Of a stretch of 64,000 bases of DNA, positions 24,624 through 64,000 are shown piece by piece (positions within the stretch are counted from its first letter, which is position 1; every line of letters begins with the position of its first letter). This stretch comes from Plumapathes pennacea (Eukaryota; Cnidaria; Anthozoa; Antipatharia; Myriopathidae). Made by a program: the position numbers and the translations under genes. The DNA lies in the NCBI GenBank assembly GCA_964036295.1, contig OZ038465.1:5504667-5568666 (forward strand), given 5' to 3'. Under the pieces are notes generated by a model. The model did not search any database, was not told where the DNA came from, and saw nothing but the letters and a program-made list of their open reading frames with translations.

Positions 24624-24696
24624 TGGAGAATCCGGGTATCGATCCCGGTACCTCTCGCATGCTAAGCGAGCGCTCTACCATTTGAGCTAATTCCCC
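24624..24696 (-). tRNA. tRNA-Ala-AGC: tRNA-Ala (AGC), copy 3
   Basis: Identical 73-nt gene. Its downstream flank shares the AAAACAGACAGCAAAA-type segment with copy 2, but spacing is 485 bases. T4 terminator downstream on the minus strand. Confidence 0.97.
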
Positions 24697-25115: not shown

Positions 25116-25190
25116 TTTTTTGTTTTTTTGTTTTTTGTTTTTTGTTTTTTGTTTTTGTTTTTGTTTTTGTCTTTGTTTTTTTTGTTAGGA
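25116..25190. repeat. T-rich (GTTTTT)n tract
   Basis: Repeats of GTTTTTT and GTTTTT with one GTCTTT. Simple sequence. Confidence 0.85.
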
Positions 25191-25307
25191 ACCTATACCA
25201 AAAAGAGTAACGTTGAGAGGGATTGTTGGTTCTCAATAATATACTGCATGTGAGGTCCAACTCAGTGTGACACATCTCAATCTGCGTGCTTCACTTGTTT
25301 ATCAGAG

Positions 25308-25380
25308 GGGGAATTAGCTCAAATGGTAGAGCGCTCGCTTAGCATGCGAGAGGTACCGGGATCGATACCCGGATTCTCCA
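25308..25380 (+). tRNA. tRNA-Ala-AGC: tRNA-Ala (AGC), copy 4 (opposite strand)
   Basis: Identical 73-nt gene in plus orientation, the only inverted member of the cluster. An 8-T terminator begins at about 25392. Confidence 0.97.
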
Positions 25381-38100: not shown

Positions 38101-41100
38101 TATTGTTAATGCAGTCTACTTCAAGTCTGAAGAATAATGAAGGTGACTTGAATAATCCCACACATGACTACATTTACCACATACTAACAAAATCTCAATG
38201 TTCATTGAATGTTACCTTTGTGAAGGATTTGTAGAATTCATTGTATTCCTCATCTTTCACTTCTTTTGGTTTTTTGGTCCAGATTGGCTTGTTGGTGTTG
38301 ATCAGCTCCCAGTCCCAGATAGTCTTCTCAACCTTTGATAAACAATAACAGCATTATTTTATCATATAGGTTACACTACATGTGAATGGCTCGGGATCAT
38401 CAGCAATAGCTCACTACTTCTGAAGATCAATGTAACAACCACACATGCCAACAAACAACCAGATGAACTTGTAAATAGAAATCAGGTTGGCTTGAGAGCC
38501 TGATATTTAAAGGAAACATGTACAGTAGTATAAATCCTTGATCAGATGAAACTTCATCAGTTTCACTTAACTGTATGTACAAAATTGTACACATACCACA
38601 GGCTTCAGCTGAGGGTGCAAAAGGGTACAACAGCAATATATAATCAAATTAGTTCTTGTACCTTTTTGGTCTTTGGTTTCTTTTCTTTGTCTTCAGTCTC
38701 TTCCTCTACTTCAGCATCATCATCATCCTTGTCTTCTTTGTCTTTCTCCTCATCTTTGTCTTTGTCTTTGTCTTCACCTTCCTCCTCCTTCTTGTCCTCT
38801 GCTCCCTCTTCTTTCTTGTCCTCTTCTTTGGCCTCCTCTTCCTCAATGGGCTCTTCAACTTCTTCTGTTTTGCTTGTCCACAAGAAGATGTTGAAGTTGA
38901 TGAACTGACTGTATTTCTTGACCAAATCTTTGATGGTATCAGGCTCCAAGAAGTCACGAGCCTCCTCTTTCAGGTAAACACTGCAATCAAAGGAAAGATC
39001 AGAATACAAATATTCTCCCAGCCATAAGATAAGAAAATGTATGAGTGATGAAAGGAGAATTGACCATTTATCTCTTTCAGTTTCTAATTGTCTGAGAAAT
39101 ATCAAATGTTAAGTTTTTCATTCTGCATAATAATCTCTGGAGACTAAGGATTTGTTTTTGTGGTTGCTTAGACAGCCAAAATAATGCCAAATTTTGGGTT
39201 GGGGAACCCAAACACAGGGACACTTGAACAATTATTAAATTGTTAACCCAAGTGGGTCACCTTGACAGTACCTCTTGATCTTTACTAACCTGATTGTAGT
39301 TCCTCTCTTGAGGGTATCTCCACGAGGATCCTCTGTAATGCTAAAGGAGTTGGCATCAGACTCCCAGACGTACTGTTTGTCATCATTGTGTTTTGTTGTG
39401 ACAATAACACGGTCAGCTACAAGGAATGAGGAGTAGAATCCAACACCAAACTGACCAATCAGATCATTGGTTTGGTCAGATGACTGGGCTTCCTACAAAA
39501 ATAGAAGACAAAATTAGAAAAAGAGGAGGACTTAATGAAGTCAATGAAAATGTTTCTATAATATGTTATGCATATATGGTATATGACCCATGAAGAATAT
39601 GCAAGTGAATTGATCTTTGTGTTAAAATGTTTCTATAATATGTTATGCATATGGTATATGACCCATGAAGAATATGCAAGTGAATTGATCTTTGTGTTTG
39701 TTTTAAAGTCTCCAAACTGTATGGCAGATGTTGTGGTGGAAGAATAGCAAGAGAACTGGCAGGTTATCAGTGACTCAGGAGTAAATGGTAATCATACCTG
39801 AATCTTTTGGAAGAATTCACTGGTACCAGACTTGGCAATAGTTCCAAGATTTTTTACTAAGTCATCTTTGGTCATGCCAATACCGGTGTCTGTCACATGA
39901 AGGACATTATTTTCTTTGTCAGCTTTGATTTTGATTGACAGCTCCTCTGTTGCGGCAAGCGCTGTTTTGTCGGTCAATGACAAAAACCTGATCTTGTCAA
40001 GTGCATCTGAAGAGTTGGAGATAAGTTCTCGGAGGAAAATCTGCAAATCAGAGGAAATTATTGTTTAGAACATCAGGATGGTTGTGACACATCAGGGTTT
40101 TTTCTTTTTCTTCTTTCTTTTTTTTTTGCAGGGGGGAGGAGGCATCTATGGTACGAAGTATGGTAGGGTAATGAATACATTTTTGGGAGCAATTTTGGTT
40201 CAAGTTGCATGTGGATAAATCTGAATTTGACTGATTTTCCTCACCTCCTTATTTCTGTACAAAGAGTTGATAATTAGCTTCATCATACGGTTGACTTCAG
40301 CTTGAAAGGTGAACTTCTCTGCCTTGTCCCTAAGTTCTTTCATCTGAGCAACATTCAACCCATCTAGTTTGATGGCCTCTTCTTCTCTCTCTACGGCTTC
40401 ATCGTCTGTTTTTGATCCCTCTCTGCTTTTCCCAATATCTTCATCTACCTTTGGTGCGGCTTCAGGTTCTGTTTCTTTTGCCTCTTCTTCGGCTACACAG
40501 AGATTAACTGTTCACAAAATACAAAAAAGCCTTTTACTTCCAAGTCCAGAAAACAGATTGATCAAGAAAACAAGGTGCTGCATGTGATGAGAGTGATGCA
40601 CATGTACACAACGTTGTAAAATGTATATAGTGTACCATACTGCAGCTCAACATTTATTATTAAATTAAACATGCAATTCACTCCTGATCATTGCATTAAT
40701 ATTAAAAATATATATGAGCTATAGTGCAAGAACTTTGCCTTGACAGTAACTCCAATTTACTTTCTGAATAATTATAATGACTATGTACTGTATCTGGCAG
40801 TCAAAAGGTTATTAGGATGGGAAATACTGTACGGTAAGATACATTCTGGCAAGTATTATTATTCTAGTTAGAAGTTTGCAATATTTCATGTTATTAGAAG
40901 TGTGTACACTACATGTGTGTAATTTATAAATGCTAGTACAGTACTTATTTTTATCTGTAGAAAAAAATAAGAAAATGTGTGAACAACTTTAATACTTGAA
41001 TGTATGAATTGCTGTTATGAATCAGAAATATTTGAAGTAACAGCATATTGATAGGAACCTTAAGTGCATTATCTATTCTAAAAGGAGTTACTTAACTGAT

Positions 41101-41969
41101 CAAACTGACTTATTGTTTGGTGCAAGGCTGAATCAACACAATACCATAAATGCTGGTACAGGCACACAATCAGTTGACAGAAAATGATAGCTTTGGTGCA
41201 ATTAAATGCTAACAGATTTTTAAAAGCCTCTGTAAAAAAATAAACAAATCAGTACTTGGATTAAAAATTTATTTTGATGTGACGTATTAATGAGGGGTGT
41301 TGAATGGCACGAAATGGTTGGTCCACATAAGCTCCCTCATCCAATCAGAATGTGCCATCTCAAAAACTACTTTTTCAAATGTGAATGGATTTTACTACCG
41401 AGGGCAATTAACCCAGATATGAAATTACAGAGCCAAAATGCTTTAAGATATAGCCTCGAAACAAACTCTTTAGAACATGTTTATAAATTGTAAATACATT
41501 TCAGATCAATAAAACTTGCTTGGAGGTGAACGATTGGAATATTTTAGAAACTCGATAAGGCAAATCTTTGAGGTGCATGTAATTTCATTAGTGATAGCTT
41601 ACTTGATGCATTCTCCTTTATCATAAACTGGGTTTGCAGTGCTTAATTAATTCTTGCCTTTTCCAAGGATTTGTGCAGGTTTTCGACTCGAAAGGAAATC
41701 AAACTTCTGAATTAGAAAATTCTCTCGGTTTATAAGTAGCTGAGAACTACAAGAGGGTTACTCGAATTTCCTGTCAATAGTGAAACGGCTAACTCATACA
41801 AGCAGGCAAACAAGTAATTTAAGTTGCTGGAACGAATTGAACGTAGCTGGTAGATTGCAAAACTCACCGGAAGCGAAGCAAAATGTGGAAATACAAAGTA
41901 ACATAAACTGTACTTACAACTGACTAAAAGGACAGCCAACAGGCCCAAGAGATATGCCTTTCTTCTCAT
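35140..41969 (-). CDS. HSP90B1: Endoplasmin (GRP94), ER-lumen HSP90
   Basis: Eleven coding exons on the minus strand: 41969-41918, 40492-40245, 40040-39798, 39492-39290, 38980-38662, 38332-38216, 38084-37711, 37497-36940, 36300-36138, 35829-35569, 35181-35140, giving 859 aa (human 803). A signal peptide ([17 protein letters not shown]) starts it; there is no upstream in-frame ATG. The GHKL ATPase domain has [15 protein letters not shown] (E105, N109), DTGIGM (D151) and [11 protein letters not shown] long acidic linker (Glu/Asp/Lys, exon 5) precedes the middle domain, which has the catalytic Arg loop [17 protein letters not shown]. The dimerisation domain and a very acidic tail (exon 10) follow. 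Exon 11 encodes [13 protein letters not shown], a true KDEL retrieval signal. It folds secretory and membrane clients in the ER. It is divergent from CRELD, with ER-stress elements between the two. All junctions keep phase. Confidence 0.98.
36701..36934. repeat. Three 78-bp tandem repeats in HSP90B1 intron 8
   Basis: Copies start at 36701, 36779 and 36857 with GAAACCCAAGCAGGGATGGC and differ at only a few positions. The array stops five bases from the exon 8 splice donor. Because 78 is a multiple of three the array is open on the minus strand, but exon 8 reads into TAA at the junction, so it is not an exon extension. Confidence 0.9.
39547..39698. repeat. Two-copy 77-bp tandem duplication in HSP90B1 intron 3
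   Basis: TGTTTCTATAATATGTTATG through TGAATTGATCTTTGTGTT occurs twice in a row; the second copy has a 2-base deletion in an AT run. Confidence 0.9.
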
Positions 41970-42073
41970 CGTCGGAGAAAAGTTTCCTAAACACAAAACT
42001 ATTGATGCTCTTAAAGGTACCGTACAAAACTTTGACAGAGAGGAAGTGCAAGCTGTCTTTGAACTTCTCAAAG

Positions 42074-42092
42074 CCAACCAAAGTTGTCCACG
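42074..42092 (+). promoter_or_regulatory. ERSE-like element (one mismatch)
   Basis: CCAAC - 9 nt - CCACG. Only the last base of the CCAAT half differs from CCAAT-N9-CCACG. Spacing is exact. Confidence 0.6.
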
Positions 42093-42101
42093 AGCAAAGC
42101 G

Positions 42102-42120
42102 CGTGGCCCGCGCTTATTGG
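42102..42120 (-). promoter_or_regulatory. Perfect ER-stress response element
   Basis: CGTGG-CCCGCGCTT-ATTGG on the plus strand, which is CCAAT-N9-CCACG on the minus strand. The known binding scheme is NF-Y at CCAAT and ATF6/XBP1 at CCACG. It lies 133 bases upstream of the HSP90B1 ATG, in its direction. Confidence 0.85.
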
Positions 42121-42142
42121 CTAATTTTGCCCACGTGACAGA

Positions 42143-42161
42143 CGTGGCCCTGTGTGATTGG
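42143..42161 (-). promoter_or_regulatory. Second perfect ER-stress response element
   Basis: CGTGG-CCCTGTGTG-ATTGG on the plus strand; again a perfect CCAAT-N9-CCACG on the minus strand, 41 bases from the first. Confidence 0.85.
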
Positions 42162-42585
42162 ACACAGGAAGCCGGTCGGCAAAAGAAGGGCTATGAGATA
42201 TTACAAGCACGAAAAATACCTTGAACCAAAGTCATGTTATTAATCTGAGTGTTTTGTTTCTTTAAAGCCTAGAATATGCACAAGGTTGCAGTTTAATTAC
42301 GTACTGTAGCATGGTCAGAATTATAATCTCAAAGTTGGCAGAAACGGGCTATTGACTCAGTCAACTCTTTGATGAATAATGAAATTCTCCCTTCACTCTC
42401 CCCGGTTTTCCCTGCACTACGAGGGGAGACTGCTGGAATACACATAGTATGACACAACTTTCAGCTGTAAAAATGTACGATCTGTTTTGATTTGAAGTCT
42501 CAAAATTCCCTGGCCTTTTGTGCAAATCGGAGGCAAACTTCGTGTGGGAGGACCGATTCCAGTTGCTGTGTAGAAATTGACAACA

Positions 42586-45500
42586 ATGGAAATCAGCAAA
42601 AATAGTATTTATATATTGTTTAAAATTCTTATGCTATTGGATGTTTTACTGTGTCAAGGAGGGAAGAGAGATGCTAAAGATAAATGTCCCACTTGCAAGG
42701 ACATTGTTGAAGCATTTCAAAAGGTAAGTGTTCGATCAAGTTTTAGAATTTATATACGGATCGTAGAAAACTGCCAAATGAAGGATACATCACTTACAAA
42801 CTCCACATACTCCTTCACATTTTGATATTTTATTACGTTACTTTTTAAAATACTTTGTCGGCAGTTGGTAGCAAAGCATTTTAGGCTCAATAGCGATTAC
42901 AGACAAAATTTTCCATTCATTGCACGGATTGCAGTTATAATATACGCGTATGACATGCATATAGACGTCCATAGAAAAAAAAAGCAGGTGAAATATTATT
43001 TTGTTTGGGTTTAAAGCAGCTGGTCAGAGTATCGATTCTCCTATCACTTTAACTCGCACATGTAGGTTAGATATATTAGGATATTTAGTAATCTGAGAGT
43101 TGAGTAAAATGAAAATTTGTCAGCTAAGTGTATACCACACAAGTGAATAAGTGCATTTGACACGTTCTGATTGGCTGACCAGTCTTCCATCTCAGAATAG
43201 CTAGTACTATTCACCTCCTGGCGGCTTCTGGTGAAACAGTCTAGCATGCGAACCCATTTTTTTCCTATTTTTGTCAGAAAATAAAAGAGCTATTTGGGAG
43301 CAGGCTATAACTTGTGCATACAGTAGTATATTATAGTTTGTCTCAATGTCGGTGAATACAGCAGTGAACATTATCTTGCTAAAGAGGCTTGGTAAATATC
43401 CACTGCCATTCACCTCCACATTGGCAAAACATTTTAATAATCACATTTTCCAACTGTGCATACCCAGCTTTTGGGGTTTTGGATAATGCTACCCGGAGGC
43501 TGAGAATCTGACCAGTTTTTGTGAACCAGCATAAACCAGTCTGAATCTGTGCCTGTAGCCCTAATGTTGCTTTTTACAAAATAATAAGGAATGCTCAGTG
43601 ATTGTGCTCCACATCAGCACACCTCCAAACCCCATGCATGTGCATACACTTGGGCCTAAATGGCTCTAATTAAATGAATGGTACACATGGGTACTTCAAT
43701 CTAATGGCTTTTTAATAGTAAAATGACTGGAAGAAAACTGACTGGAAAGAATGCCCAATGTTCAAATGCTTAAGGTTTATTCTTTATGTTGTTTTTCCTT
43801 ATGATGCCCTGTAAAGTATAAGTGATGGAGTAGTTATGTTGCTAAAAATCATTCAGAGTCCCTTGTGCCAGATACCAGTACAGTTAATTACATCCTGGAA
43901 GTCTTATAGACCTTACTTCACTTTGACTCCCTTAAATACAGGGGGTAGAAAAGACAGAAAATGCCAATTATGGTGGAGGAAACACAGAGTGGGAAGAACG
44001 AGCACTTGGAAGCTATGCAAAAAGGTGTGAGTTGTTACTTGTATTAATGTTAGACAGCATAATTACCAATGGTTTTTGCATGAGAAGTTGATTATTTGGC
44101 CACAGTCATTGATGTGGTATATATCAAGTTGATTATAGAAATTTTTATGTACAATTATCATATTACAGACTGCATGTTTATGTATGTCCAGTAACTCCAG
44201 AGTTCGGCTTGAAAAAATATGTTATATCATTTATTTTTACAGTGAAACTAGATTAGTTGAAATTGTGGAAGGTCTCTGTTCTGACAGTGCATCAGAGGTA
44301 AGCTGTTCAGTCACTTGATGTAGTAAATTAAAAAGGTATGATAAATTTATTACATATCAATATGTAATAATAATATTAAAACTGTGGATTATTGGACTTA
44401 ACCATGAACACAAACAACAAAAATAATTATTATTTTACCATATACCATATGGTACTGTATGTAATAAATAAGGACCGAGATAATTATTTATTTACCGTTG
44501 TTTTATTTTCTTGTTAACAGTGCCATTCAATGGTTGAAGAGCATGAAGAGACATTAGAGGATTGGTGGTTTAAATTGTGAGTTGCATCACAATGTTCTTA
44601 CTGAACTGCAGATTATCGTAACACCAGCGTGTACTTTTTTTCAGGGGCATACACCCACAGGGTTTACTCAATTATGTGTACAGTGGAGTCTTGATAACTT
44701 GAACCTCAGTAATTCGAAGCAAAAGTTATTTCCCTTTGATTTGCTAACACTGTAATTTTACCCCCAACATAATTAGAGCTCCCGATTACTTGAACCAATT
44801 TTCATTTCTCTTGGAGGTTCAAGTTATTGGGATTTCACTATAGATTTAACCTTTTGAGTCATGATGTTATACTCTTAGTGTTATTTTTAGAAAAGGATCG
44901 GAAATATAAGGATCGAGCTAATACAAGAATAGTGCTACTCATCAATAGCTTTCATTTGGTTGATTAATTACTTTACTTTGTAATCTTATTGCAATTCTTG
45001 TATTTTTGTCCAAATTGTGTTGAGAGTTGAAGCTGCACTGTACAATTTGACAATTGTTTCATAAAGTCTTAGTTTATATTTGTGTCCAATTTGACTTTGG
45101 GTTAAGTTGTATCACTCTGTTGTTATTTTTGTGATTGTTTTGCAGTCAGTCAAAAGATATAGATCTGAAGAATTGGTTTTGTGTGGATAAATTGAAAGGT
45201 GGGTGCTGGATCTGTCAGTACCCATGACATCTTTAACCATTTGCTATTTTCTTATTTCTGGCTGTTTTAGGTATGGATTGGTAGGGAGGAGGGAGGTATG
45301 GGTGTGGTGGGATTGAGTCAGGTGTTAGGGACAGAGTGGGTAACTGACTATGTGAGCAGTAAATGATCAGGATCTAAATAACTTCCAGCTTCGGCTCTTC
45401 AGGCACCAGGATGCTGGGTGGAGACAATATTTGAAGCTAAAATGAATATAAGGGTTGTGATTGTGGATATGGGAGATTAATTAAGACAGAATAAAAGAAA

Positions 45501-48500
45501 GAAAGAATGTACACAGTGAAAGAACTGATCCAGTGTATGTTTATTGTTATTTAGTTTGCTGCCCAAATGGTACCTATGGGTCAGACTGCAAAGGTGAGAG
45601 ATAAAATAACTTCATATCATAATATTATATATCAATTTAAAGCATGTTGGAAGAATAAAATTAGGAACTTTGTATACTTATCTATTGTTTTGTTGGTAAA
45701 CAGATTGTCCAGGAGGAAAAGAAAATACCTGCAATGGTCATGGGCAGTGTGAGGTACTTAAGACATGAAGAAAACATTACAGCAAGCACACATACACGTA
45801 GCACATAGTGTTTCCTAGTGCAAGTCTTGCATCTTGCATTAAGTTTTGTCCTACATAGAGAGTGAATCATTTGCCACTTTTACTGGAGGACCTACCTGTG
45901 CCCCTGGAAGTTACAGAGTTTTCCTGAAGTGATTGTTGTGATGGGAATCTGGCGATTGGCATTGAAGTTGTGAATGTGTTTTGTTACAGGGTGATGGAAG
46001 CCGGAAGGGTTCTGGAAAGTGTGATTGTGATGCTGGATATGAAGGTGACACCTGCGATGAGTGTGCTGATGATTTCTTTGAAGAGAAGGATGAAGATTCA
46101 AAGTTAAAATGCACAGGTGAGCTGGTACAGTCTTTTCAATTTGTACTTACACACACTGTAGTTCTGCTGTTGAAAAGGAAGTACTGTGTTAAAAAAGACA
46201 ATCAGACCAATTTTGTTTTTTTTTTACGTAACTAGTTTAGATAAGATCATGTGATCCTGTGTTGATATTTTGTACATGGGGAGGGGTGGAGTAGGAAGGG
46301 ATGTAGAGTTACTTGTTGACTGGTATTAAAAGGTATGAAAACAAAGTACAAACATGAAGAGAAAGCCTTTCTCAATCAGACATTTATAATTTGCGATGTG
46401 TTTCCTCTGACCTTTCCCCTTCTCAATTGTACAAGCTCTGGCCTGCCAATTGAAATGTAAGTCCATGCAAATGGGTAGCACAAGTTTGAAAACTTGCATT
46501 GCTAGGCATCAACTTACATCTCAGCTGTAAAAGTTTGCAAACACTTGAGCAGTCTTGTTAATTAAGCTTTTTTCTTTCTGCACAGCCTGTCATGAAGCAT
46601 GTGAAGGAGGTTGTACAGGAAGTTCACCAAAGGACTGTGAGAAATGCAAAGAAGGATGGGAGAAGTCTGATGATGGGGAATGTAAAGGTGGGGTTGTATT
46701 TCTACAGATGAGTAACACAGATGTAGCTTTTTATTGAGCTGCAATACATCAAATAATAATTTTGTTGTAGTATATACCACACAAGTTTAATGGCAACCCT
46801 CAAATAATTATTTTATGTTCTGAGTCCAATGGGCAATAATTGGGTTCACTGGAGATTTTCTCTTTTACTTTAAGCACTTTTCTAATGTGCCATTTTATTT
46901 GTCTTCAGATAAAGATGAATGTACTGAGGAAGGGAAGTGTGAGTCTGGAGAGTATTGTGTGAACACTCCAGGATCTTACACGTGTCAAGGTGAGCAGTAT
47001 GACAGCCACTTCTCTCCAGCAGTCAGATTTTCTTGTCCTGACCATTGATCCATGCATTAATTTGACTCTTTATATTCAACTGTAGTAAAAATTGTTGAGC
47101 CACAAACTATTATTCTTACCTTGTGTTGCTGACTCTTGTCCAGCTCTGAAAATAGATGGATATACACAGAAATAACGAACAAAATCTTGCTTTTTCAGGG
47201 TGTGATGTAGCATGTGTTTCATGTACGGGCGAAGGAGCAAAAAAATGCACAGAATGCAGTTCAGGATATGAAATGACTGATGATGGCTGTACAGGTAAAC
47301 AAACAACGAGTGTAACTTTGTTAATGAGTGGGCACTGGTGCTATCTCCCGGGGTGGGGGTACTCGATCCCTATGGTCGACTATACGGGAGGATCCACCCG
47401 AAAGGGGTCCGTTTTTTAGCTTTTGGTATTAAAAGCAATATAGAAAAACGAAGCTTTTTGGTATTTAAAAGGGCGGGTAAGAAGGGCCAGTAATTAGAGA
47501 CAAAGGAAAATCGTATTGGCATTTTTACAGAGGTTCTAAAACTAGTCCTGCGACTGATAAGTTCGTTAAAGTCGCGTCGACAAGTTGCGTGCGGTTTTTC
47601 TGGACGTTTTCCTGTTCAGAGCGATAAAAGAGGGACAAAAGTGTCACCATTTCGACTCCAGAACGGTATTTGAAAGGGTAAGGCGTTAAAAGCCTTCGTT
47701 GATTGACAGAAAGTTTTGAGAACATTTCTCGTTTCTCGCATTCTGCGGACAGATGTAAACGAGTGTGTTGAGACTGACAAGTGTGAATCTGGAAAATACT
47801 GTGTAAACACTGCAGGATCCCACACGTGTGAAGGTTAGTTGTTGTTGTTGTTATTGTTATTGTTATTGTTGTTGTTGTTTGTGATGGTGGGATAAATCAC
47901 CTTTCGTGCAAAACGTCAAATCGTACAACAAGTGGAAAGAGTTCAATTGCAGTTGGGCGGCGTTTTTACGTGATTGCATAGATTAGGCTGATTCTTACAG
48001 AGAAAAAAGGCAAAATAATAATAATAAAAAAAAAAACACTGAAACAAATTAAACGTACCTATCAGTTTGGCACAGTACCCAATAAGAAATTGCGAAAGAA
48101 TGGTCGTACTTCTTGGTTTTTGAGGAATAAATTCTGATTGGATGAAGCATATGGCGTCGTGGAAGTCGTTTGTCGGCTCGGCTCGTTTTGCAGACGGTAT
48201 TTTTGGTCTTCGCATTGCAACAGGCGGGGAATCCGTCTGTTTTCGCAAGATAAGAATACTGGTTAATCCGCTCATGTGCTGAACTGTCCTTGTATAGACT
48301 GCCATGAGTCTTGTGAAGGAGATTGCACCGGCGAAGGTCCTAAAGGCTGTCAAGCCTGCAAAACCGGTTACACCATGAGCGACGAAGAAGGATGTAAAGG
48401 TGAGTTCAGTACGGTCAAATCTCACTACAACACTCATACATTTTCCTATTGAATGGTGAATGAAAGAGTTAACATTCATTTAGGCCGTTTTTTCTTGGCT

Positions 48501-50633
48501 TTTCTTGCTATAGTTTACGCTAGAGATAAATGGAGGTGTCGTACTTTGGAAGAAGTTTTAAGCGAGGCCGAGGTAACTGTTGGTTTTCTAACTATTGCAG
48601 ATAACGACGAATGCATGGAGAGCTCCACTCTTTGTGAAAACGGAAAGTATTGCGTCAACATACCAGCGTCCTACGAATGTGAAGGTACAGTTTATCCCTG
48701 TGATCCGAGCTGGAGAGGAGTACAAAAAGCTTAAAGTGCTTTTGTGTGGGGGTAGGGGATGTTTTAAAGTTTTTACCTTCTTCTGGAGAGGTCATAAGAG
48801 TTTTGTCCTGTCTTTACCACAAAATGTATCTAAGAGTCTAAAATTTCAATATTTTCACTACTGGGAGTTACCAACTTCAAATTTCTCTTTCATTCTCTCA
48901 CCATATATAGTCATACTGAACAGCAAGAAAAAGTTGACAGTCAATAGCCTGCTTAGACGACAGCTGATTGAACTATCAATTCTCATTACATCACTCATAC
49001 ATTTTCTTCTTGAATGGTTGGGAGAATCTGTATTTTGAGTTTGGGAGTGAAAGGGTTAAACTTGTTGGGTTTCCTCTGTCTACAGCCTGTGATCCTGCGT
49101 GTGTCTCGTGCATCGGTCAAGGCCGTCAAGGCTGCACCAAATGCACCACGGGATACGCGATGAGTAGCAACGGATGTGAAGGTAGGCTTTTCTTTATATG
49201 AAGGAAACTGTTCCCGTTTTTGCATGAGCTGCAAGCAATCGGGTTTGCTTTTGTCCCTGATTTGTTACCAAACATGTGTGGATCAATCCAAAAGCGCAGT
49301 AAACGCAATAGCCGAAGCAATTACACGAGTAGTTCAACTGCCATCTGAAAACCTCTCTAAAGAAATGTATGAATAGTTGTAACGCCTAGTTACATGCGAA
49401 GGAGGGTGGCCCAGGAACCTGTGCAAAGTACAATTAGGCCCCGTCCACACTAATCCGGATAAATTTGAAAACGGAGTTTTCATACGAAAAACGCATCGAA
49501 AGTTTTCCGTCCACACTATCGTTTTCGAATCGTTTTCGCTGTCCACACTAATACGCTGGACTGACCAAAAACGCTAAATGCCCGAATTGAGCATGTACAC
49601 AGAGATCACTGACATCATAACGTCATGCGTTTTCGAAAAGCTCCGTTTTCGCCGTCCACACTACACCATGAAACCGGAATTTTCGAAAATATCCACTCTG
49701 GAGAGCGTTTTCGAACATATCCGTTTTCGGTCACCGAAAACGCGTCTTAGTGTGGACGGGAGGCCAAAACGGATAAATAAATATCCGTTTTCAAATTTAT
49801 CCGGATTAGTGTGGACGGGGCCTTAGACTAATCATGGATTAGGTTTGGAAACGTGTGTTTTGAACTTTAAAGTGCTCTTAATTTCAATACTTTTATCCTG
49901 ATAACATCGCTTGTACAATTTACACCAAGTAAATAGTTGACCAGGGCCCGGTTGTTCAAAGCATGGTTAGGCTAATCCTGGGTTAAGTCTAAACTTTGTT
50001 GTCATTTTGAGCCTGAAGTTGGGAAACCTTTCGTTTTGGAAATTTTTTGATCAAAACTCTGCAGTTTGTGGGCCAAAATCACGAGAAACAGAATTTAGTT
50101 AACCGAAATTTAGCTCAAACGAGAACTGGGCCCAGTGGAATATTTCTTGGTTTGAATGTTTAGCCTATGAGTTATAATGGTTTCTTTTTCGAAGACGCAA
50201 ATTAAGTGACGTCAACCCCGTAATTTTGTGTTCTTTCTTCCTTCTGGTCTGACTTTACTTTGACTTTTTAGATGTGGACGAGTGTGCGACGGGGGCAAAC
50301 GTTTGCGTCAAAGAAAGCGAAAAGTGCAAAAACACTGTGGGAAGCTACAAGTGTATATGCCGCTCGGGCTACGTGCGACAAAGAGGCAAATGTACAAAGA
50401 AAAAAGGTAAACAGACGGAGAAAAGCGCCACGAAAACAGAGGAAGAACTCTTACAGGAAGACCTTGAGAAAGGCAACTATTTTTCAGAGGCACAGCTGAA
50501 AATCGGTTCCCTTCTTTATGCCGTTTTCTTTGGCTGTTTGTTCATTGCGTTCAAGAAGAAGCAAATCTGGGCATTAGTTGGTTTGACGCTGCTTTATTTA
50601 TGTGTATTGTGGTACTTAAGCCATTCTCCCTGA
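42586..50633 (+). CDS. CRELD: CRELD, membrane isoform (cysteine-rich with EGF-like domains)
   Basis: Sixteen coding exons: 42586-42723, 43942-44024, 44243-44297, 44521-44576, 45146-45198, 45555-45593, 45704-45753, 45990-46116, 46586-46687, 46909-46989, 47199-47294, 47753-47833, 48298-48399, 48601-48684, 49086-49181, 50272-50633 (534 aa). A signal peptide is followed by CPTCKDIVEAF and the CRELD-specific WE-rich domain (GGGNTEWEE, EDWWF). Then come an EGF-like module (NGHGQCE to CDCDAGYEGDTC) and four furin-like/EGF pairs; vertebrate CRELDs have two. EGF exons 10, 12, 14 and 16 begin with D-x-(D/N)-EC, the calcium-binding form. Reading through exon 16 gives two hydrophobic helices (LLYAVFFGCLFIAF and ALVGLTLLYLCVLWYL) separated by KKKQ, like the CRELD1 hairpin. 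Exons 9-15 are all phase 1-1. Vertebrate CRELD proteins act in the ER on folding and maturation of client proteins. Divergent neighbour of HSP90B1. Confidence 0.92.
44681..44840. mobile_element. 160-bp MITE of Tc1/mariner (pogo-like) type in CRELD intron 4
   Basis: Left end CAGTGGAGTCTTGATAACTT continuing GAACCTC, right end GAGGTTCAAGTTATTGGGAT continuing TTCACTA, inverted with a few changes and flanked by TA on both sides. Noncoding. Confidence 0.6.
47838..47880. repeat. (GTT/ATT)n microsatellite
   Basis: Triplet repeat starting four bases inside CRELD intron 12. Confidence 0.85.
48880..49062. mobile_element. Dispersed repeat copy in CRELD intron 14
   Basis: Carries ACTCATACATTTTCTTCTTG, GGGAGAATCTGTATTTTGAG and the end TTGGGAGTGAAAGGGTTAA shared with the MITE-like element at 11144-11354 and with reverse-oriented sequence near 39000-39075. 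A further fragment lies at 48425-48475. Left boundary uncertain. Confidence 0.4.
49437..49822. mobile_element. 386-bp MITE with perfect 39-bp terminal inverted repeats
   Basis: Begins GGCCCCGTCCACACTAATCC and ends GGATTAGTGTGGACGGGGCC; the inverted identity extends 39 bases at each end. TTA is duplicated on both sides (49434-49436, 49823-49825), as for PIF/Harbinger elements. The interior repeats GTTTTCG and GTCCACACTA motifs and has no transposase. Lies in CRELD intron 15. Confidence 0.85.
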
Positions 50634-51667
50634 CACTTCTGTGTTATCTAAGTGACTTTTGAAGCCAGTGCAATGGCCCTCTTTTATCTTGGAAACGCTT
50701 GCTGCATATCAGTTGTCTGCGAGTCAGCCATTGTGGCTCTATCTTCGCACTTGGTTTTTATTACACCATGGAGCCGTTTATGGTGGGTTTCGCGGTTTCA
50801 GTATAGTGCACGAGTAGCTTGTTTCTCTCTTGGGAGTATTTACGCGCATCAACTTTACGTTGATGCGACCAAACCTAGTTATCAGAAGGAAACTATAGGA
50901 AACTTTGCACCCGTTCGGTGGCTCACTGCATAGCCCCAGGTGGCAGACAGAAGGCAAGCAAGAGGCTGTGCTATGATTACTAGTTTTGTTAATTGTATAC
51001 TATAACGGATGAAGTATAGGAGAATTCTGTGCGAATTAGTTTCTAAATTTAAAAACGCAGGGTAGTTAGCGCAGGTCTATAGACGGGGATGTGGACTTAA
51101 TCCAACACATCTATAGCAAACCAAGCAGTATAGTTTTAGCTCCTTTTGGTACTGGTTGATGATAGGTTTGTGTTTCCTTGGGGTCTAATTCCTTCCTTTC
51201 ACAAGTCGGTGTAATTAAATAGCGTTAAGTCTGTATGTAGTGTAATAATTACCTTTTTTATCTATTGCAAAACTTTATACTTTAACTTTTGTAACTCAAG
51301 ACTATATCTCTTTTTGTGTATGTGCGTGAATAATATGTACAGAATAAGTGTTTAGCTAGAAGTGAAATCAGTAATTTAGTTAACAGAGTATATGATAAAG
51401 ATCTATGAGCACTTCTCTGGCTTGAAAGCAGTCGGTCGAAGGACAATATGTATTTCCTGTCTAAACTAACCAGTTGTGACTATTCTTTTTTCTTTTCTCC
51501 TTAAATCCTAGTGTGTTTTTCAACACAGCCAAGTCGTCCTTCACACAGAGTCGCTTTTGCTCCCTTTATGTTCTTGTTTCTATTTTTAGTGGTGTAACGT
51601 TTTTATTTGTCTTTATTTGTAAGTCAGTCTTTTTGTTCATTTCGTTTTATTTTTGGTTTGTGTCCAG

Positions 51668-51792
51668 AAGTTAAGAAAGATGATGACGATGATGATGACG
51701 ATGATGATGATGATGATGACGCGGACAACGAACATGCTAAAGAGGACAAAAGCGACTCCAGTGTGGATAAAGATAAACACAGCGAGCTGTAG
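51668..51792 (+). CDS. CRELD: Alternative last exon of CRELD: acidic tail ending HSEL
   Basis: An internal donor in exon 16 (AAAAAAG/GTAAAC, cut after 50406, phase 1) joins in frame to acceptor GTGTCCAG at 51667. The result replaces the two membrane helices by EVKK, 14 Asp, a charged segment and terminal KDKHSEL: a soluble 500-aa isoform with an HSEL end that fits the KDEL-receptor class (x-x-E-L). Acidic tails plus retrieval signals are typical of calcium-rich ER-lumen proteins, and vertebrate CRELD2 is the soluble ER form. Frame and phase fit exactly; transcript proof is lacking. Confidence 0.75.
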
Positions 51793-51818
51793 TGTTAAGA
51801 AATTTTGAACTTTACGAA

Positions 51819-51824
51819 AATAAA
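51819..51824 (+). terminator. Polyadenylation signal for the HSEL isoform of CRELD
   Basis: AATAAA 27 bases after the alternative stop codon, followed by T-rich sequence. No equally good signal was seen just after the membrane-isoform stop at 50633. Confidence 0.55.
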
Positions 51825-52410
51825 TAAATTATTTGTACCATTTTACCAGTCTGGTTTCGTTTTCTCTGTTTTATTATTCCGCTCATACATTACACTATAT
51901 AAATTTCCAGCTTTTCTGAAGTCAAATGGAATATTATTCCTGAGAAACAACTCGTATTTGTCGCCTCCCTCCACCCCCACACCCACCGCCATCCTCTTTT
52001 GAGAAAATGTAAATACTCATTCGGGACAGTATGATGCTTACATGCAGTTATCCGATTTAAAACGGGTATGTTTCCTAGTGCGTATCGTTAATAGACTTTT
52101 ATGTAAAGTACTGCGGAATAGGCGCTCTGAAAACGGTAAAAAATAAATAAAAAAAAAATGGGGGGTGAAAAATTAAAACAGTGAAGTTTTTCTTTTTCTT
52201 TTCTTTTTCTTTTGCCTTATTTTATTTGACCCTTTGATGAGAAACATCAGCAAAACCACGTAAAACCTGAGGCTCATTTATTCGAAAAGTGGGATATTTT
52301 AGTCGAGAAAATGCTCTAACCTTTCGCGACCTGTTGATTGAAAAAGTATCAAATTTCATATCAAAACCTGCGTTATACTCCCAGGGCTATAGGCTATAGG
52401 CTATAAGATA
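51825..52410. other. Spacer between CRELD and satellite array
   Basis: No gene seen. A- and T-rich simple stretches near 52140-52215; just before the array the word CTATAGG is repeated (52388-52404). Confidence 0.5.
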
Positions 52411-54632
52411 CATAAAGCAAATGTATTGCAGAAAGTCTTCTTATAGTCCCAGGAAGGTTTCCTAAAAGTTTCAAGATTTTTCAATTTTTGCCCAAAATCG
52501 GCAAAAAACCCTTGGCTATAGCCTTAGTATTTTGTCAAATTCAAGCTGCTATATCTCGCCAACGGATGAAGATCGATAAAGCAAATGTATTGCAAAAAGT
52601 CTCGTAATAGTCCAAAGAAGGTTTCCTGAAAGTTTTAAGAGTTTTCAATTTTTGGCCAAAATCGGGAAAAAAACCCTGTGCTATAGCCTTAGTATTTTGT
52701 CAAAATTCCAAGATTTTTCGACCATCTCAGAATCGCATGAAACTTTCAGGAAACGTTCCTGGGACTATGCCGACGGGTTTCGCATAGTTTTTGTAATCTT
52801 TTAGGTCGCGGATCGTGAGAAATTAGAGCAAATTACACCAAATCATGCGCTAATTAAAACATCACACCTTTCGAGCAAAGGAGCCAAATTCAAGCTGCTA
52901 TATCTCGCCAACGGATGAAGATCGATAAAGCAAATGTATTGCAGAAAGTCTTGTAATAGTCCAAAGAAGGTTTCCTGAAAGTTTTAAGAGTTTTCAATTT
53001 TTGGCCAAAATCGGCAAAAAACCCTGTGCTATAGCCTTAGTATTTTGTCAAAATTCCAAGATTTTTCGACCATCTCAGAATCGCATGAAACTTTCAGGAA
53101 ACGTTCCTGGGACTATGCCGACGGGTTTCGCATAGTTTCTGTAAACTTTTAGGTCGCGCGTCGTGAGAAATTAGAGCAAATTACACCAAATCATGCGCTA
53201 ATTAAAACATCACAACTTTCGAGCAAAGGAGCCAAATTCAAGCTGCTATATCTCGCCAACGGATGAAGATCGATAAAGCAAATGTATTGCAGAAAGTCTT
53301 GTATTAAGTCCAAAGAAGGTTTCCTGAAAGTTTTAAGAGTTTTCAATTTTTGGCCAAAATCGGGAAAAAAACCCTGTGCTATAGCCTTAGTATTTTGTCA
53401 AAATTCCAAGACTTTTGACCATCTCAGAATCGCATGAAACTTTCAGGAAACGTTCCTGGGACTATGCCGACGGGTTTCGCATAGTTTCTGTAAACTTTTA
53501 GGTCGCGCGTCGTGAGAAATTAGAGCAAATTACACCAAATCATGCGCTAATTAAAACATCACACCTTTCGAGCAAAGGTGCCAAATTCAAGCTGCTATAT
53601 CTCGCCAACGGATGAAGATCGATAAAGCAAATGTATTGCAGAAAGTCTTGTAATAGTCCAAAGAAGGTTTCCTGAAAGTTTTAAGAGTTTTCAATTTTTG
53701 ACCAAAATCGGCAAAAAACCCTGTGCTATAGCCTTAGTATTTTGTCAAAATCCGGTCATTTTCCGACCATCTCAGAATCGCATGAAACTTTCAGGAAACG
53801 TTCCTGGGACTATGCCGACGGGTTTCGCATAGTTTTTTTTAAACTTTTAGGTCGCGCGTCGTGAGAAATTAGAGCAAATTACACCAAATCATGCGCTAAT
53901 TAAAACATCACACCTTTCGAGCAAAGGAGCCAAATTCAAGCTGCTATATCTCGCCAACGGATGAAGATCGATAAAGCAAATGTATTGCAGAAAGTCTTGT
54001 AATAGTCCAAAGAAGGTTTCCTGAAAGTTTTAAGAGTTTTCAATTTTTGGCCAAAATCGGGAAAAAATCCCTGTGCTATAGCCTTAGTATTTTGTCAAAA
54101 TTCCAAGATTTTTCGACCATCTCAGAATCGCATGAAACTTTCAGGAAACGTTCCTGGGACTATGCCGACGGGTTTCGCATAGTTTTTGTAAACTTTTAGG
54201 TCGCGCGTCGTGAGAAATTAGAGCAAAGTACACCAAATCATGCGCTAATTAAAACATCACACCTTTCGAGCAAAGGAGCCAAATTCAAGCTGCTATATCT
54301 CGCCAACGGATGAAGATCGATAAAGCAAATGTATTGCAGAAAGTCTTGTAATAGTCCAAAGAAGGTTTCCTGAAAGTTTTAAGAGTTTTCAATTTTTGGC
54401 CAAAATCGGCAAAAAACCCTGTGCTATAGCCTTGGTATTTTGTCAAAATTCCAAGATTTTTCGACCATCTCAGAATCGCATGAAACTTTCAGGAAACGTT
54501 CCTGGGACTATGCCGACGGGTTTCGCATAGTTTTTGTAAACTTTTAGGTCGCGCGTCGTGAGAAATTAGAGCAAATTACACCAAATCATGCGCTAATTAA
54601 AACATCACACCTTTCGAGCAAAGGAGCCAAAT

Positions 54633-56718
54633 TCAAGCTGCTATATCTCGCCAACGGATGAAGATCGATAAAGCAAATGTATTGCAGAAAGTCTTGTAAT
54701 AGTCCAAAGAAGGTTTCCTGAAAGTTTTAAGAGTTTTCAATTTTTGGCCAAAATCGGCAAAAAACCCTGTGCTATAGCCTTAGTATTTTGTCAAAATTCC
54801 AAGATTTTTCGACCATCTCAGAATCGCATGAAACTTTCAGGAAACGTTCCTGGGACTATGCCGACGGGTTTCGCATAGTTTTTGTAAACTTTTAGGTCGC
54901 GCGTCGTGAGAAATTAGAGCAAATTACACCAAATCATGCGCTAATTAAAACATCACACCTTTCGAGCAAAGGAGCCAAATTCAAGCTGCTATATCTCGCC
55001 AACGGATGAAGATCGATAAAGCAAATGTATTGCAAAAAGTCTTGTAATAGTCCAAAGAAGGTTTCCTGAAAGTTTTAAGAGTTTTCAATTTTTGGCCAAA
55101 ATCGGCAAAAAACCCTGTGCTATAGCCTTAGTATTTTTTCAAAATTTCAAGATTATTCGACTATCTCAGAATCGCATGAAACTTTCAGGAAACGTTCCTG
55201 GGACTATGCCGACGGGTTTCGCATAGTTTTTGTAAACTTTTAGGTCGCGCGTCGTGAGAAATTAGAGCAAATTACACCAAATCATGCGCTAAATAAAACA
55301 TCACACCTTTCGAGCAAAGGAGCCAAATTCAAGCTGCTATATCTCGCCAACGGATGAAGATCGATAAAGCAAATGTATTGCAGAAAGTCTTGTAATAGTC
55401 CAAAGAAGGTTTCCTGAAAGTTTTAAGAGTTTTCAATTTTTGGCCAAAATCGGCAAAAAACCCTGTGCTATAGCCTTAGTATTTTGTCAAAATTCCAAGA
55501 TTTTCGACCATCTCAGAATCGCATGAAACTTTCAGGAAACGTTCCTGGGACTATGCCGACGGGTTTCGCATAGTTTTTGTAAACTTTTAGGTCGCGGGTC
55601 GTGAGAAATTAGAGCAAATTACACCAAATCATGCGCTAATTAAAACATCACACCTTTCGAGCAAAGGAGCCAAATTCAAGCTGCTATATCTCGCCAACGG
55701 ATGAAGATCGATAAAGCAAATGTATTGCAGAAAGTCTTGTAATAGTCCAAAGAAGGTTTCCTGAAAGTTTTAAGAGTTTTCAATTTTTGGCCAAAATCGG
55801 CAAAAAACCCTGTGCTATAGCCTTAGTATTTTGTCAAAATTCCAAGATTTTTCGACCATCTCAGAATCGCATGAAACTTTCAGGAAACGTTCCTGGGACT
55901 ATGCCGACGGGTTTCGCATAGTTTTTGTAAACTTTTAGGTCGCGCGTCGTGAGAAATTAGAGCAAATTACACCAAATCATGCGCTAATTAAAACATCACA
56001 CCTTTCGAGCAAAGGAGCCAAATTCAAGCTGCTATATCTCGCCAACGGATGAAGATCGATAAAGCAAATGTATTGCAAAAAGTCTTGTAATAGTCCAAAG
56101 AAGGTTTCCTGAAAGTTTTAAGAGTTTTCAATTTTTGGCCAAAATCGGCAAAAAACCCTGTGCTATAGCCTTAGTATTTTTTCAAAATTTCAAGATTATT
56201 CGACTATCTCAGAATCGCATGAAACTTTCAGGAAACGTTCCTGGGACTATGCCGACGGGTTTCGCATAGTTTTTGTAAACTTTTAGGTCGCGCGTCGTGA
56301 GAAATTAGAGCAAATTACACCAAATCATGCGCTAAATAAAACATCACACCTTTCGAGCAAAGGAGCCAAATTCAAGCTGCTATATCTCGCCAACGGATGA
56401 AGATCGATAAAGCAAATGTATTGCAGAAAGTCTTGTAATAGTCCAAAGAAGGTTTCCTGAAAGTTTTAAGAGTTTTCAATTTTTGGCCAAAATCGGCAAA
56501 AAACCCTGTGCTATAGCCTTAGTATTTTGTCAAAATTCCAAGATTTTCGACCATCTCAGAATCGCATGAAACTTTCAGGAAACGTTCCTGGGACTATGCC
56601 GACGGGTTTCGCATAGTTTTTGTAAACTTTTAGGTCGCGGGTCGTGAGAAATTAGAGCAAATTACACCAAATCATGCGCTAATTAAAACATCACACCTTT
56701 CGAGCAAAGGAGCCAAAT
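54633..56718. repeat. Three-monomer block duplicated in tandem (1043 bp)
   Basis: Units 54633/54981/55329 and 55676/56024/56372 share private variants in the same order: the middle unit has GCAAAAAGTC, AAGATTATTCGACTATC and GCTAAATAAAAC; the third has AAGATTTTCGACC and GTCGCGGGTCG. Confidence 0.85.
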
Positions 56719-59700
56719 TCAAGCTGCTATATCTCGCCAACGGATGAAGATCGATAAAGCAAATGTATTGCAGAAAGTCTTGTAATAGTCCAAAGAAGGT
56801 TTCCTGAAAGTTTTAAGAGTTTTCAATTTTTGACCAAAATCGGCAAAAAACCCTGTGCTATAGCCTTAGTATTTTGTCAAAATTCCAAGATTTTTCGACC
56901 ATCTCAGAATCGCATGAAACTTTCAGGAAACGTTCCTGGGACTATGCCGACGGGTTTCGCATCGTTTTTGTAAACTTTTAGGTCGCGCGTCGTGAGAAAT
57001 TAGAGCAAAGTACACCAAATCATGCGCTAATTAAAACATCACAGCTTTCGAGCAAAGGAGCCAAATTCAAGCTGCTATATCTCGCCAACGGATGAAGATC
57101 GATAAAGCAAATGTATTGCAGAAAGTCTTGTAATAGTCCAAAGAAGGTTTCCTGAAAGTTTTAAGAGTTTTCAATTTTTGGCCAAAATCGGCAAAAAACC
57201 CTGTGCTATAGCCTTAGTATTTTGTCAAAATTCCAAGATTTTTCGACCATCTCAGAATCGCATGAAACTTTCAGGAAACGTTCCTGGGACTATGCCGACG
57301 GGTTTCGCATAGTTTTTGTAAACTTTTAGGTCGCGCGTCGTGAGAAATTAGAGCAAATTACACCAAATCATGCGCTAATTAAAACATCACACCTTTCGAG
57401 CAAAGGAGCCAAATTCAAGCTGCTATATCTCGCCAACGGATGAAGATCGATAAAGCAAATGTATTGCAGAAAGTCTTGTAATAGTCCAAAGAAGGTTTCC
57501 TGAAAGTTTTAAGAGTTTTCAATTTTTGGCCAAAATCGGCAAAAAACCCTGTGCTATAGCCTTAGTATTTTTTCAAAATTCCAAGATAATTCGACTATCT
57601 CAGAATCGCATGAAACTTTCAGGAAACGTTCCTGGGACTATGCCGACGGGTTTCGCATAGTTTTTGTAAACTTTTAGGTCGCGCGTCGTGAGAAATTAGA
57701 GCAAATTACACCAAATCATGCGCTAATTAAAACATCACACCTTTCGAGCAAAGGAGCCAAATTCAAGCTGCTATATCTCGCCAACGGATGAAGATCGATA
57801 AAGCAAATGTATTGCAGAAAGTCTTGTAATAGTCCAAAGAAGGTTTCCTGAAAGTTTTAAGAGTTTTCAATTTTTGGCCAAAATCGGCAAAAAACCCTGT
57901 GCTATAGCCTTAGTATTTTGTCAAAATTCCAAGATTTTTCGACCATCTCAGAATCGCATGAAACTTTCAGGAAACGTTCCTGGGACTATGCCGACGGGTT
58001 TCGCATAGTTTTTGTAAACTTTTAGGTCGCGGGTCGTGAGAAATTAGAGCAAATTACACCAAATCATGCGCTAATTAAAACGTCACACCTTTCGAGCAAA
58101 GGAGCCAAATTCAAGCTGCTATATCTCGCCAACGGATGAAGATCGATAAAGCAAATGTATTGCAGAAAGTCTTGTAATAGTCCAAAGAAGGTTTCCTGAA
58201 AGTTTTAAGAGTTTTCAATTTTTGGCCAAAATCGGGAAAAAAACCCTGTGCTATAGCCTTAGTATTTTGTGAAAATTCCAAGACTTTTGACCATCTCAGA
58301 ATCGCATGAAACTTTCAGGAAACGTTCCTGGGACTATGCCGACGGGTTTCGCATAGTTTTTGTAAACTTTTAGGTCGCGGGTCGTGAGAAATTAGAGCAA
58401 ATTACACCAAATCATGCGCTAATTAAAACATCACACCTTTCGAGCAAAGGAGCCAAATTCAAGCTGCTATATCTCGCCAACGGATGAAGATCGATAAAGC
58501 AAATGTATTGCAGAAAGTCTTGTAATAGTCCAAAGAAGGTTTCCTGAAAGTTTTAAGAGTTTTCAATTTTTGACCAAAATCGGCAAAAAACCCTGTGCTA
58601 TAGCCTTAGTATTTTGTCAAAATTCCAAGATTTTTCGACCATCTCAGAATCGCATGAAACTTTCAGGAAACGTTCCTGGGACTATGCCGACGGGTTTCGC
58701 ATAGTTTCTGTAAACTTTTAGGTCGCGCGTCGTGAGAAATTAGAGCAAATTACACCCAAATCATGCGCTAATTAAAACATCACACCTTTCGAGCAAAGGA
58801 GCCAAATTCAAGCTGCTATATCTCGCCAACGGATGAAGATCGATAAAGCAAATGTATTGCAGAAAGTCTTGTAATAGTCCAAAGAAGGTTTCCTGAAAGT
58901 TTTAAGAGTTTTCATTTTTTGACCAAAATCGGCAAAAAACCCTGTGCTATAGCCTTAGTATTTTCTCAAAATTCCAAGATTTTTCGACCATCTCAGAATC
59001 GCATGAAACTTTCAGGAAACGTTCCTGGGACTATGCCGACGGGTTTCGCATATTTTTTGTAAACTTTTAGGTCGCGCGTCGTGAGAAATTAGAGCAAAGT
59101 ACACCAAATCATGCGCTAATTAAAACATCACACCTTTCGAGCAAAGGAGCCAAATTCAAGCTGCTATATCTCGCCAACGGATGAAGATCGATAAAGCAAA
59201 TGTATTGCAGAAAGTCTTGTAATAGTCCAAAGAAGGTTTCCTGAAAGTTTTAAGAGTTTTCAATTTTTGGCCAAAATCGGCAAAAAACCCTGTGCTATAG
59301 CCTTAGTATTTTGTCAAAATTCCAAGATTTTTCGACCATCTCAGAATCGCATGAAACTTTCAGGAAACGTTCCTGGGACTATGCCGACGGGTTTCGCATA
59401 ATTTTTGTAAACTTTTAGGTCGCGCGTCGTGAGAAATTAGAGCAAATTACACCAAATCATGCGCTAATTAAAACATCACACCTTTCGAGCAAAGGAGCCA
59501 AATTCAAGCTGCTATATCTCGCCAACGGATGAAGATCGATAAAGCAAATGTATTGCAGAAAGTCTTGTAATAGTCCAAAGAAGGTTTCCTGAAAGTTTTA
59601 AGAGTTTTCAATTTTTGGCCAAAATCGGCAAAAAACCCTGTGCTATAGCCTTAGTATTTTTTCAAAATTCCAAGATTTTTCGACTATCTCAGAATCGCAT

Positions 59701-59851
59701 GAAACTTTCAGGAAACGTTCCTGGGACTATGCCGACGGGTTTCGCATAGTTTCTGTAAACTTTTAGGTCGCGCGTCGTGAGAAATTAGAGCAAAGTACAC
59801 CAAATCATGCGCTAATTAAAACATCACACCTTTCGAGCAAAGGAGCCAAAT

Positions 59852-62800: not shown

Positions 62801-64000
62801 AATTCCAAGATTTTTCGACCATCTCAGAATCGCATGAAACTTTCAGGAAACGTTCCTGGGACTATGCCGACGGGTTTCGCATAGTTTTTGTAAACTTTTA
62901 GGTCGCGCGTCGTGAGAAATTAGAGCAAATTACACCAAATCATGCGCTAATTAAAACATCACACCTTTCGAGCAAAGGAGCCAAATTCAAGCTGCTATAT
63001 CTCGCCAACGGATGAAGATCGATAAAGCAAATGTATTGCAGAAAGTCTTGTAATAGTCCAAAGAAGGTTTCCTGAAAGTTTTAAGAGTTTTCAATTTTTG
63101 GCCAAAATCGGCAAAAAACCCTGTGCTATAGCCTTAGTATTTTGTCAAAATTCCAAGATTTTTCGACCATCTCAGAATCGCATGAAACTTTCAGGAAACG
63201 TCCCTGGGACTATGCCGACGGGTTTCGCATAGTTTCTGTAAACTTTTAGGTCGCGCGTCGTGAGAAATTAGAGCAAATTACACCAAATCATGCGCTAATT
63301 AAACATCACACCTTTCGAGCAAAGGAGCCAAATTCAAGCTGCTATATCTCGCCAACGGATGAAGATCGATAAAGCAAATGTATTGCAGAAAGTCTTGTAA
63401 TAGTCCAAAGAAGGTTTCCTGAAAGTTTTAAGAGTTTTCAATTTTTGACCAAAATCGGCAAAAAACCCTTTGCTATAGCCTTAGTATTTTGTCAAAATTC
63501 CAAGATTTTTGACCATCTCAGAATCGCATGAAACTTTCAGGAAACGTTCCTGGGACTATGCCGACGGGTTTCGCATAGTTTTTGTAAACTTTTAGGTCGC
63601 GCGTCGTGAGAAATTAGAGCAAAGTACACCAAATCATGCGCTAATTAAAACATCACACCTTTCGAGCAAAGGAGCCAAATTCAAGCTGCTATATCTCGCC
63701 AACGGATGAAGATCGATAAAGCAAATGTATTGCAGAAAGTCTTGTAATAGTCCAAAGAAGGTTTCCTGAAAGTTTTAAGAGTTTTCAATTTTTGGCCAAA
63801 ATCGGCAAAAAACCCTGTGCTATAGCCTTAGTATTTTGTCAAAATTCCAAGATTTTTCGACCATCTCAGAATCGCATGAAACTTTCAGGAAACGTTCCTG
63901 GGACTATGCCGACGGGTTTCGCATAGTTTCTGTAAACTTTTAGGTCGCGCGTCGTGAGAAATTAGAGCAAATTACACCAAATCATGCGCTAATTAAACAT
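59852..64000. repeat. Six-monomer higher-order repeat (2088 bp)
   Basis: Unit order C C C A B A' from 59852 recurs from 61940. C units have GGGAAAAAATCCCTG and TATAGCGTTAG; A units have ACGTCCCTGGG and TTAAACATC; B units have CCCTTTGCTATAG and GATTTTTGACC. All six offsets are exactly 2088 bases. The second copy is cut by the window end. Confidence 0.88.

Follow-up and report, generated by a model that had tools for sequence, protein, structure and literature searches.

Can a single CRELD gene supply both a membrane-bound and a soluble protein to the endoplasmic reticulum (ER), the two protein types that vertebrates encode in separate genes, CRELD1 and CRELD2? The question is raised by a stretch of 64,000 nucleotides of the antipatharian Plumapathes pennacea (GCA_964036295.1, contig OZ038465.1, positions 5,504,667 to 5,568,666; our contig C4 of the 290-Mb genome), which we refer to as the window and whose positions are used throughout. 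An earlier sequence-only reading had proposed that one CRELD gene in this window encodes a membrane form and a lumenal form ending in HSEL by means of alternative 3' ends, and at the level of sequence this proposal is borne out by the reading frames, splice-site scores and a chance test. We put the probability that this single-copy hexacorallian gene makes both ER forms at about 0.85. The features on which the argument turns are as follows.

42586 to 50406, plus strand: CRELD gene, its 16 coding exons (459 codons) shared by the two forms (exon model, GT-AG borders and frames)
50272 to 50633, plus strand: exon 16 read through, with the last calcium-binding EGF domain, a linker rich in charged residues, a pair of hydrophobic helices and a stop; predicted membrane (CRELD1-like) end (frame, hydropathy)
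50407 to 51667, plus strand: terminal intron, predicted to be spliced in the soluble form and retained, or cut by polyadenylation, in the membrane form (splice-site scores)
51214 to 51219, plus strand: ATTAAA, possible polyadenylation signal of the membrane form (hexamer only)
51668 to 51792, plus strand: predicted tail exon of the soluble (CRELD2-like) form, with EVKK, an Asp run, ...DKDKHSEL and a stop (frame, chance test, repeat check)
51819 to 51828, plus strand: polyadenylation signal after the tail exon, AATAAATAAA (AATAAA at 51819 and 51823)

Two predicted alternative ends of one CRELD gene

Read-through past 50407 adds 75 residues, for a total of 534 amino acids, and exon 16 is open to a stop at 50633 through two hydrophobic helices, as had been claimed. 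The hydrophobic stretches, LKIGSLLYAVFFGCLFIAF and IWALVGLTLLYLCVLWYLS, lie at residues 490-508 and 513-531 and have mean Kyte-Doolittle values of 2.05 and 1.97, respectively, their assignment being by hydropathy only. The alignment to an approximate human CRELD1 sequence also reaches the linker and the first helix, though weakly (70 of 223 over that segment).

Splicing from 50406 to 51668 removes 1261 nt and adds a 41-residue acidic tail ending in KDKHSEL, for a total of 500 amino acids and a stop at 51792. The donor (AAG/GTAAAC, from 50407) is a phase-1 site, and its junction with 51668 (...TTTGTGTCCAG/AAG) keeps the frame; the positions given for this junction in the sequence-only reading are correct. 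The eight highest hydropathy windows of the soluble form are all N-terminal; thus, no C-terminal transmembrane (TM) helix is predicted for it.

Splice sites were scored with matrices built from the 15 introns of the CRELD gene itself. The donor at 50407, with 9.56 bits against 2.4 to 12.8 for the gene's own donors, outscores every other in 50272-51667, the runner-up being at 50782 (8.93 bits), and the acceptor at 51668 scores 7.22 bits (own acceptors, -4.7 to 11.8); both alternative sites are therefore mid-range among the gene's own. Of the 93 AG sites in 50634-52300, just three open a tail of 20 or more residues that finishes in xxEL: 51668 itself and the AGs 3 and 12 nt downstream of it, which score -1.05 and -4.66 bits. 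From the acceptors of comparable score at 50807 (6.75 bits) and 51590 (7.41 bits), the reading frame closes within 3 and 2 residues, respectively.

We calculated how often such an end arises by chance in 3000 dinucleotide shuffles and in 243 other, overlapping segments of the window, counting only tails of 30 residues or more behind an acceptor that scores 5 bits or more; the retrieval-end pattern was written post hoc, once HSEL had been seen. An xxEL end, the broad pattern, was found in 1 of the 3000 shuffles and a [KHR]xEL end in 3, and neither was found in any of the 243 other segments (3 of 243 when the acceptor threshold was dropped). Open tails of at least 30 residues are by themselves frequent (1763 of 3000 shuffles, 114 of 243 segments), so that the evidential weight lies on the retrieval-type end.

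Copy number of the CRELD gene

When the transmembrane tail was used as the query, there was one match in the whole genome at E values up to 10. The WE/EGF region yielded 20 matches at E values up to 1, eight of them at the CRELD locus and 12 elsewhere. Nine of these 12 cover query residues from 97 on only (two of the nine, in long open frames, fall below E 1e-3), and the remaining three cover the WE part. Two of the three, C3:21075792 and C4:12571016, are weak and coincide with DUF3456 matches, and neither locus (~3 kb each) showed the EGF or TM portion of CRELD; we take them to be canopy genes. A tblastn comparison of the full membrane protein with six loci of ~3 kb (L011-L016) recovered the WE part alone, in L012, L013 and L015, of which L013 and L015 overlap. 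We thus found a single CRELD gene and no second one, the third WE match (C3:21079802, E 0.16) and the nine matches from residue 97 on being unexamined.

Known one-gene systems and the ancestry of the two ends

The pattern of one CRELD gene with two forms is already known from worm and fly. According to PMC6245729, alternative last exons of C. elegans crld-1 give CRLD-1A, with two TM helices, and CRLD-1B, with KDEL, and the same is called "likely in Drosophila"; the nematode precedent that the sequence-only reading had cited is correct. A one-gene pair with and without TM helices is likewise stated for fly and worm in PMC12448699, where the two forms of Drosophila Creld (exons PA and PB) arise through alternative last exons. 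Added here are the cnidarian case, a terminal-exon layout unlike that of the worm and, as a notable promoter partner, GRP94 (see below). No paper on a cnidarian CRELD, and no description of such a layout, was met among the hits listed in our literature searches.

The Plumapathes gene resembles crld-1 (PMC6245729) in being one gene with a shared putative signal peptide, WE domain and EGF part, followed by predicted alternative ends, either two TM helices or a tail that resembles the KDEL kind. The worm gene has separate last exons, 9a and 9b, each with its own acceptor, and three EGF domains (same source), whereas in Plumapathes the last EGF exon runs directly into the TM end and four furin-like/EGF exon pairs are present.

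Given the cnidarian case, common ancestry of both ends is the simpler reading and a probable one. The main alternative is an independent gain of the two tails by cnidarians and ecdysozoans, as the difference in layout might suggest: here the membrane tail is part of the last EGF exon, and in the worm there are separate 9a and 9b exons. The same two types of end nevertheless follow the EGF part in the same domain order in both lineages, and a shift of an intron border would be easier than the invention of both ends; we consider convergence unlikely. The proposal that switching is ancestral and that duplication later fixed each form has thus gained one outgroup lineage, but as the layout differs from the worm's, one of the tails may have originated independently. 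Should both transcripts exist, the division between membrane and lumenal CRELD probably predates the parting of cnidarians and bilaterians and was achieved through alternative RNA ends, and vertebrate CRELD1 and CRELD2 would be a clear case of gene duplication replacing an isoform switch.

Could one of the two ends be spurious?

Several observations count against the two-form reading. The Asp run of the tail is a GAT microsatellite of a type common in the genome (338 matches counted) and is accordingly no evidence of function. The soluble form ends in HSEL, which resembles KDEL and (R/H)EDL and is equal to neither; in the available text of PMC8248988, which measured KDEL, RDEL, HDEL, ADEL and DDEL, HSEL has no mention (0 occurrences). 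No related locus was found in collections of prokaryotes and viruses (exon 16 in both, the WE region in the prokaryotic one), as expected from the make-up of these collections.

HSEL has been called KDEL-like in a fungal protein, and its removal abolished toxicity to C. elegans (PMC13324453). The C-terminus of vertebrate CRELD2 is given as (R/H)EDL in PMC10018036, which indicates that variation within the retrieval signal is usual in the CRELD family. We also considered whether the tail exon derives from a repeat and rejected this: among the best 40 of 102 candidate genome matches, all those outside the locus overlap the GAT tract, and none lies away from it.

If the soluble form were the only real product, the read-through end would be nothing other than unspliced pre-mRNA. 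The donor and acceptor score like constitutive sites, so that splicing could be near-complete, and there is no AATAAA within 50634-51818. The read-through is nevertheless open for 75 codons with two hydrophobic stretches of 19 residues, and a CRELD1-like end, aligning weakly into the linker and the first helix, is hardly expected from a random intron; we judge this explanation very improbable. Equally small is the chance that the membrane form is the only product and the HSEL exon a fortuitous open reading frame (ORF) or part of another transcript: the tail is partly microsatellite, 30-residue open tails are common by chance and ~1 kb separates the membrane stop from the tail exon, but an in-frame splice, a good acceptor, a retrieval-type end and an AATAAA no more than 30 nt from the stop coincide, acceptor and end together recur in one of 3000 shuffles and no real segment, a 348-bp tandem array occupies 52536-63997 downstream (downstream genes were not sought systematically), and alternative ends of this kind occur in worm and fly as well.

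How the two ends would be chosen

Because the membrane tail lies within the last EGF exon, the choice between the two forms would be one between splicing the terminal intron and either retaining it or polyadenylating inside it. Were the intron kept, or the transcript cut and polyadenylated within it (at the ATTAAA at 51214), translation would continue into the two hydrophobic helices, and the protein would be held in the ER membrane, as in the CRELD1 type. Were the intron spliced, the protein would instead carry the acidic tail and HSEL, would be soluble in the ER lumen, as in the CRELD2 type, and would presumably be retrieved by the KDEL receptor. The WE domain and the EGF part, both lumenal, would be common to the two ER proteins, which would differ in the C-terminus only. 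As no intron follows its stop, the membrane form should escape nonsense-mediated decay.

The sequence-only reading had assigned the tail exon its own AATAAA. The signal is indeed present at 51819, and it need not belong to the soluble form alone: the nearest standard alternative that would serve only the membrane form is the ATTAAA at 51214, so that a single polyadenylation site may serve both forms.

A possible means of control is an RNA structure around the tail-exon acceptor.

51548 to 51758, plus strand: candidate RNA hairpin, arms 51548-51568 and 51738-51758, enclosing the tail-exon acceptor (fold of a single sequence, post hoc)

The fold of 251 nt has an energy of -71.6 kcal/mol (z = -3.76; 0 of 200 shuffles as low), and with its halves shuffled apart z is -3.17, with 1 of 400 as low. 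By comparison, the 15 other CRELD acceptors give z values from -1.59 to 2.04 (60 shuffles each). The arms alone, which were picked after the fact, were matched in 0 of 400 shuffles. Inverted repeats of 12 nt comparable to this one turn up in 30 of 1000 shuffles and in 10 of 70 real segments, and 3 of 83 windows across the locus fold below z = -3, none of the 83 holding the whole hairpin. We have rejected the hairpin as strong evidence, as it was picked post hoc from one sequence without a covariation partner and similar inverted repeats are not rare; it may serve as a lead.

A GRP94 neighbour and a candidate ER-stress promoter

The CRELD gene lies head-to-head with a gene for GRP94 (endoplasmin), from which it is separated by a gap of 616 bp (41970-42585).

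35140 to 41969, minus strand: GRP94 (endoplasmin), divergent neighbour (ORF match; ATG at 41969; ...EPKDEL end at about 35140, placed by eye)
42102 to 42120, minus strand: perfect ER stress response element (ERSE), CCAAT-N9-CCACG, reading CGTGG-N9-ATTGG on the plus strand (pattern match)
42143 to 42161, minus strand: second perfect ERSE (pattern match)

An ORF at 36936-37535 (199 amino acids) matches endoplasmin in PDB (E = 1.8e-84). A spacing of 22 nt separates the two perfect ERSEs; by expectation the whole window would contain 0.04 matches, and among the genome ERSE matches listed this is the only pair within 100 bp. On the plus strand both read CGTGG-N9-ATTGG, the same as the mouse element through which, in the CRELD2 review PMC10018036, CRELD2 is induced by ER stress. 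The gap is a candidate shared ER-stress promoter, and ER stress would probably co-induce CRELD and GRP94 through the two elements.

The mouse offers a similar arrangement in CRELD2 and ALG12, a head-to-head pair with an ERSE (PMC3091781). There too a CRELD gene faces an ER gene across a short gap, whereas the partner is ALG12 in mouse and GRP94 here, and the Plumapathes gap holds two ERSEs. In the same source, ERSE-proximal CRELD2 constructs responded to thapsigargin and ALG12 responded less. Shared induction is harder to reconcile with the report, again in PMC3091781, that whole-gap reporters of the mouse pair were hardly responsive to thapsigargin and that the response was asymmetric; it also gains nothing from the single ERSE, which is not enriched genome-wide (251 matches against 471 for the reversed pattern).

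If the co-induction is real, the GRP94 partner and the paired ERSEs would link CRELD with the unfolded-protein response of animals for which heat stress is a practical issue. At its most extended, the locus could be pictured as one ER-stress unit in which the paired ERSE drives GRP94 and CRELD, a hairpin that hides the acceptor governs how much membrane relative to soluble form is made, stress shifts this folding helper from membrane to lumenal clients, and the vertebrate two-gene state replaced an ancestral RNA switch; as a whole, this picture is a long shot.

Gene architecture and family identity

In the exon model, exons 1-16 join without a stop and have GT-AG borders, and exons 8 to 16 each end in phase 1. 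The protein has, in order, a hydrophobic N-terminus (residues 8-26, mean hydropathy 1.83, from hydropathy windows alone), a WE/DUF3456 domain with CPTC (CXXC) at residues 34-37, an EGF part and, in exons 9-16, four pairs of furin-like and EGF exons; a calcium-binding EGF is the last domain of the shared part. The WE region scanned alone matches DUF3456 (PF11938) at 48.5 bits (cut-off 21.1), a domain that was not listed when the whole 534-residue membrane protein was scanned against Pfam, and EGF_CA (PF07645) matches at 49.1 bits, with its best stretch at residues 415-455. The modules that we take to be furin-like had no furin-like match in the Pfam scan. Human CRELD1, in an approximate sequence, aligns with the protein at 143 of 305 residues (47%); it has two furin-like/EGF pairs, as against four here. 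A search of PDB with residues 1-261 gave no relative at E 0.01, the query having been taken from a shorter early model that is identical to the final one over this part.

The block of exons 9-12 may have been duplicated as 13-16 (46586-50406). Exon lengths are 102, 81, 96 and 81 in the first block and 102, 84, 96 and 135 in the second, and the furin-like exons are most similar between corresponding positions (9 and 13, 17 of 30 residues identical; 11 and 15, 16 of 30; other furin-like pairs, 12-14 of 29-30). Lengths and furin-like exon similarity together suggest a duplicated four-exon block, which the EGF exons fit less well, exon 10 being nearest to exon 12 (18 of 27) and not to exon 14 (16 of 27).

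Intron 15 contains a 388-bp element (49436-49823) with 45-nt inverted ends (96%). Among 961 candidates, the 40 scored copies, its own included, are full or near-full length and 97-100% identical; by these sequence features the element is a member of a young, abundant family resembling miniature inverted-repeat transposable elements.

Other features of the window and genome

The tandem array begins ~0.7 kb past the CRELD polyadenylation signal and runs to the end of the window, with ~33 copies at 98% matches. Within 2.4 kb (23831-26204) there are five genes for tRNA-Ala (AGC), all with the same Rfam score, four on the minus strand and one on the plus strand. The mitochondrial DNA is a separate contig of 17.7 kb (C24) with a hexacorallian pattern, as in sea anemones, stony corals and their relatives, so that the cnidarian source taken for granted in the sequence-only reading is very probably correct. 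On this contig ARAGORN reports tRNA-Met and tRNA-Trp only and Rfam two tRNAs in the same places. Its cox1 match is split into separate pieces with an ORF of 250 amino acids between them, and all mitochondrial ORFs over 170 amino acids are on one strand.

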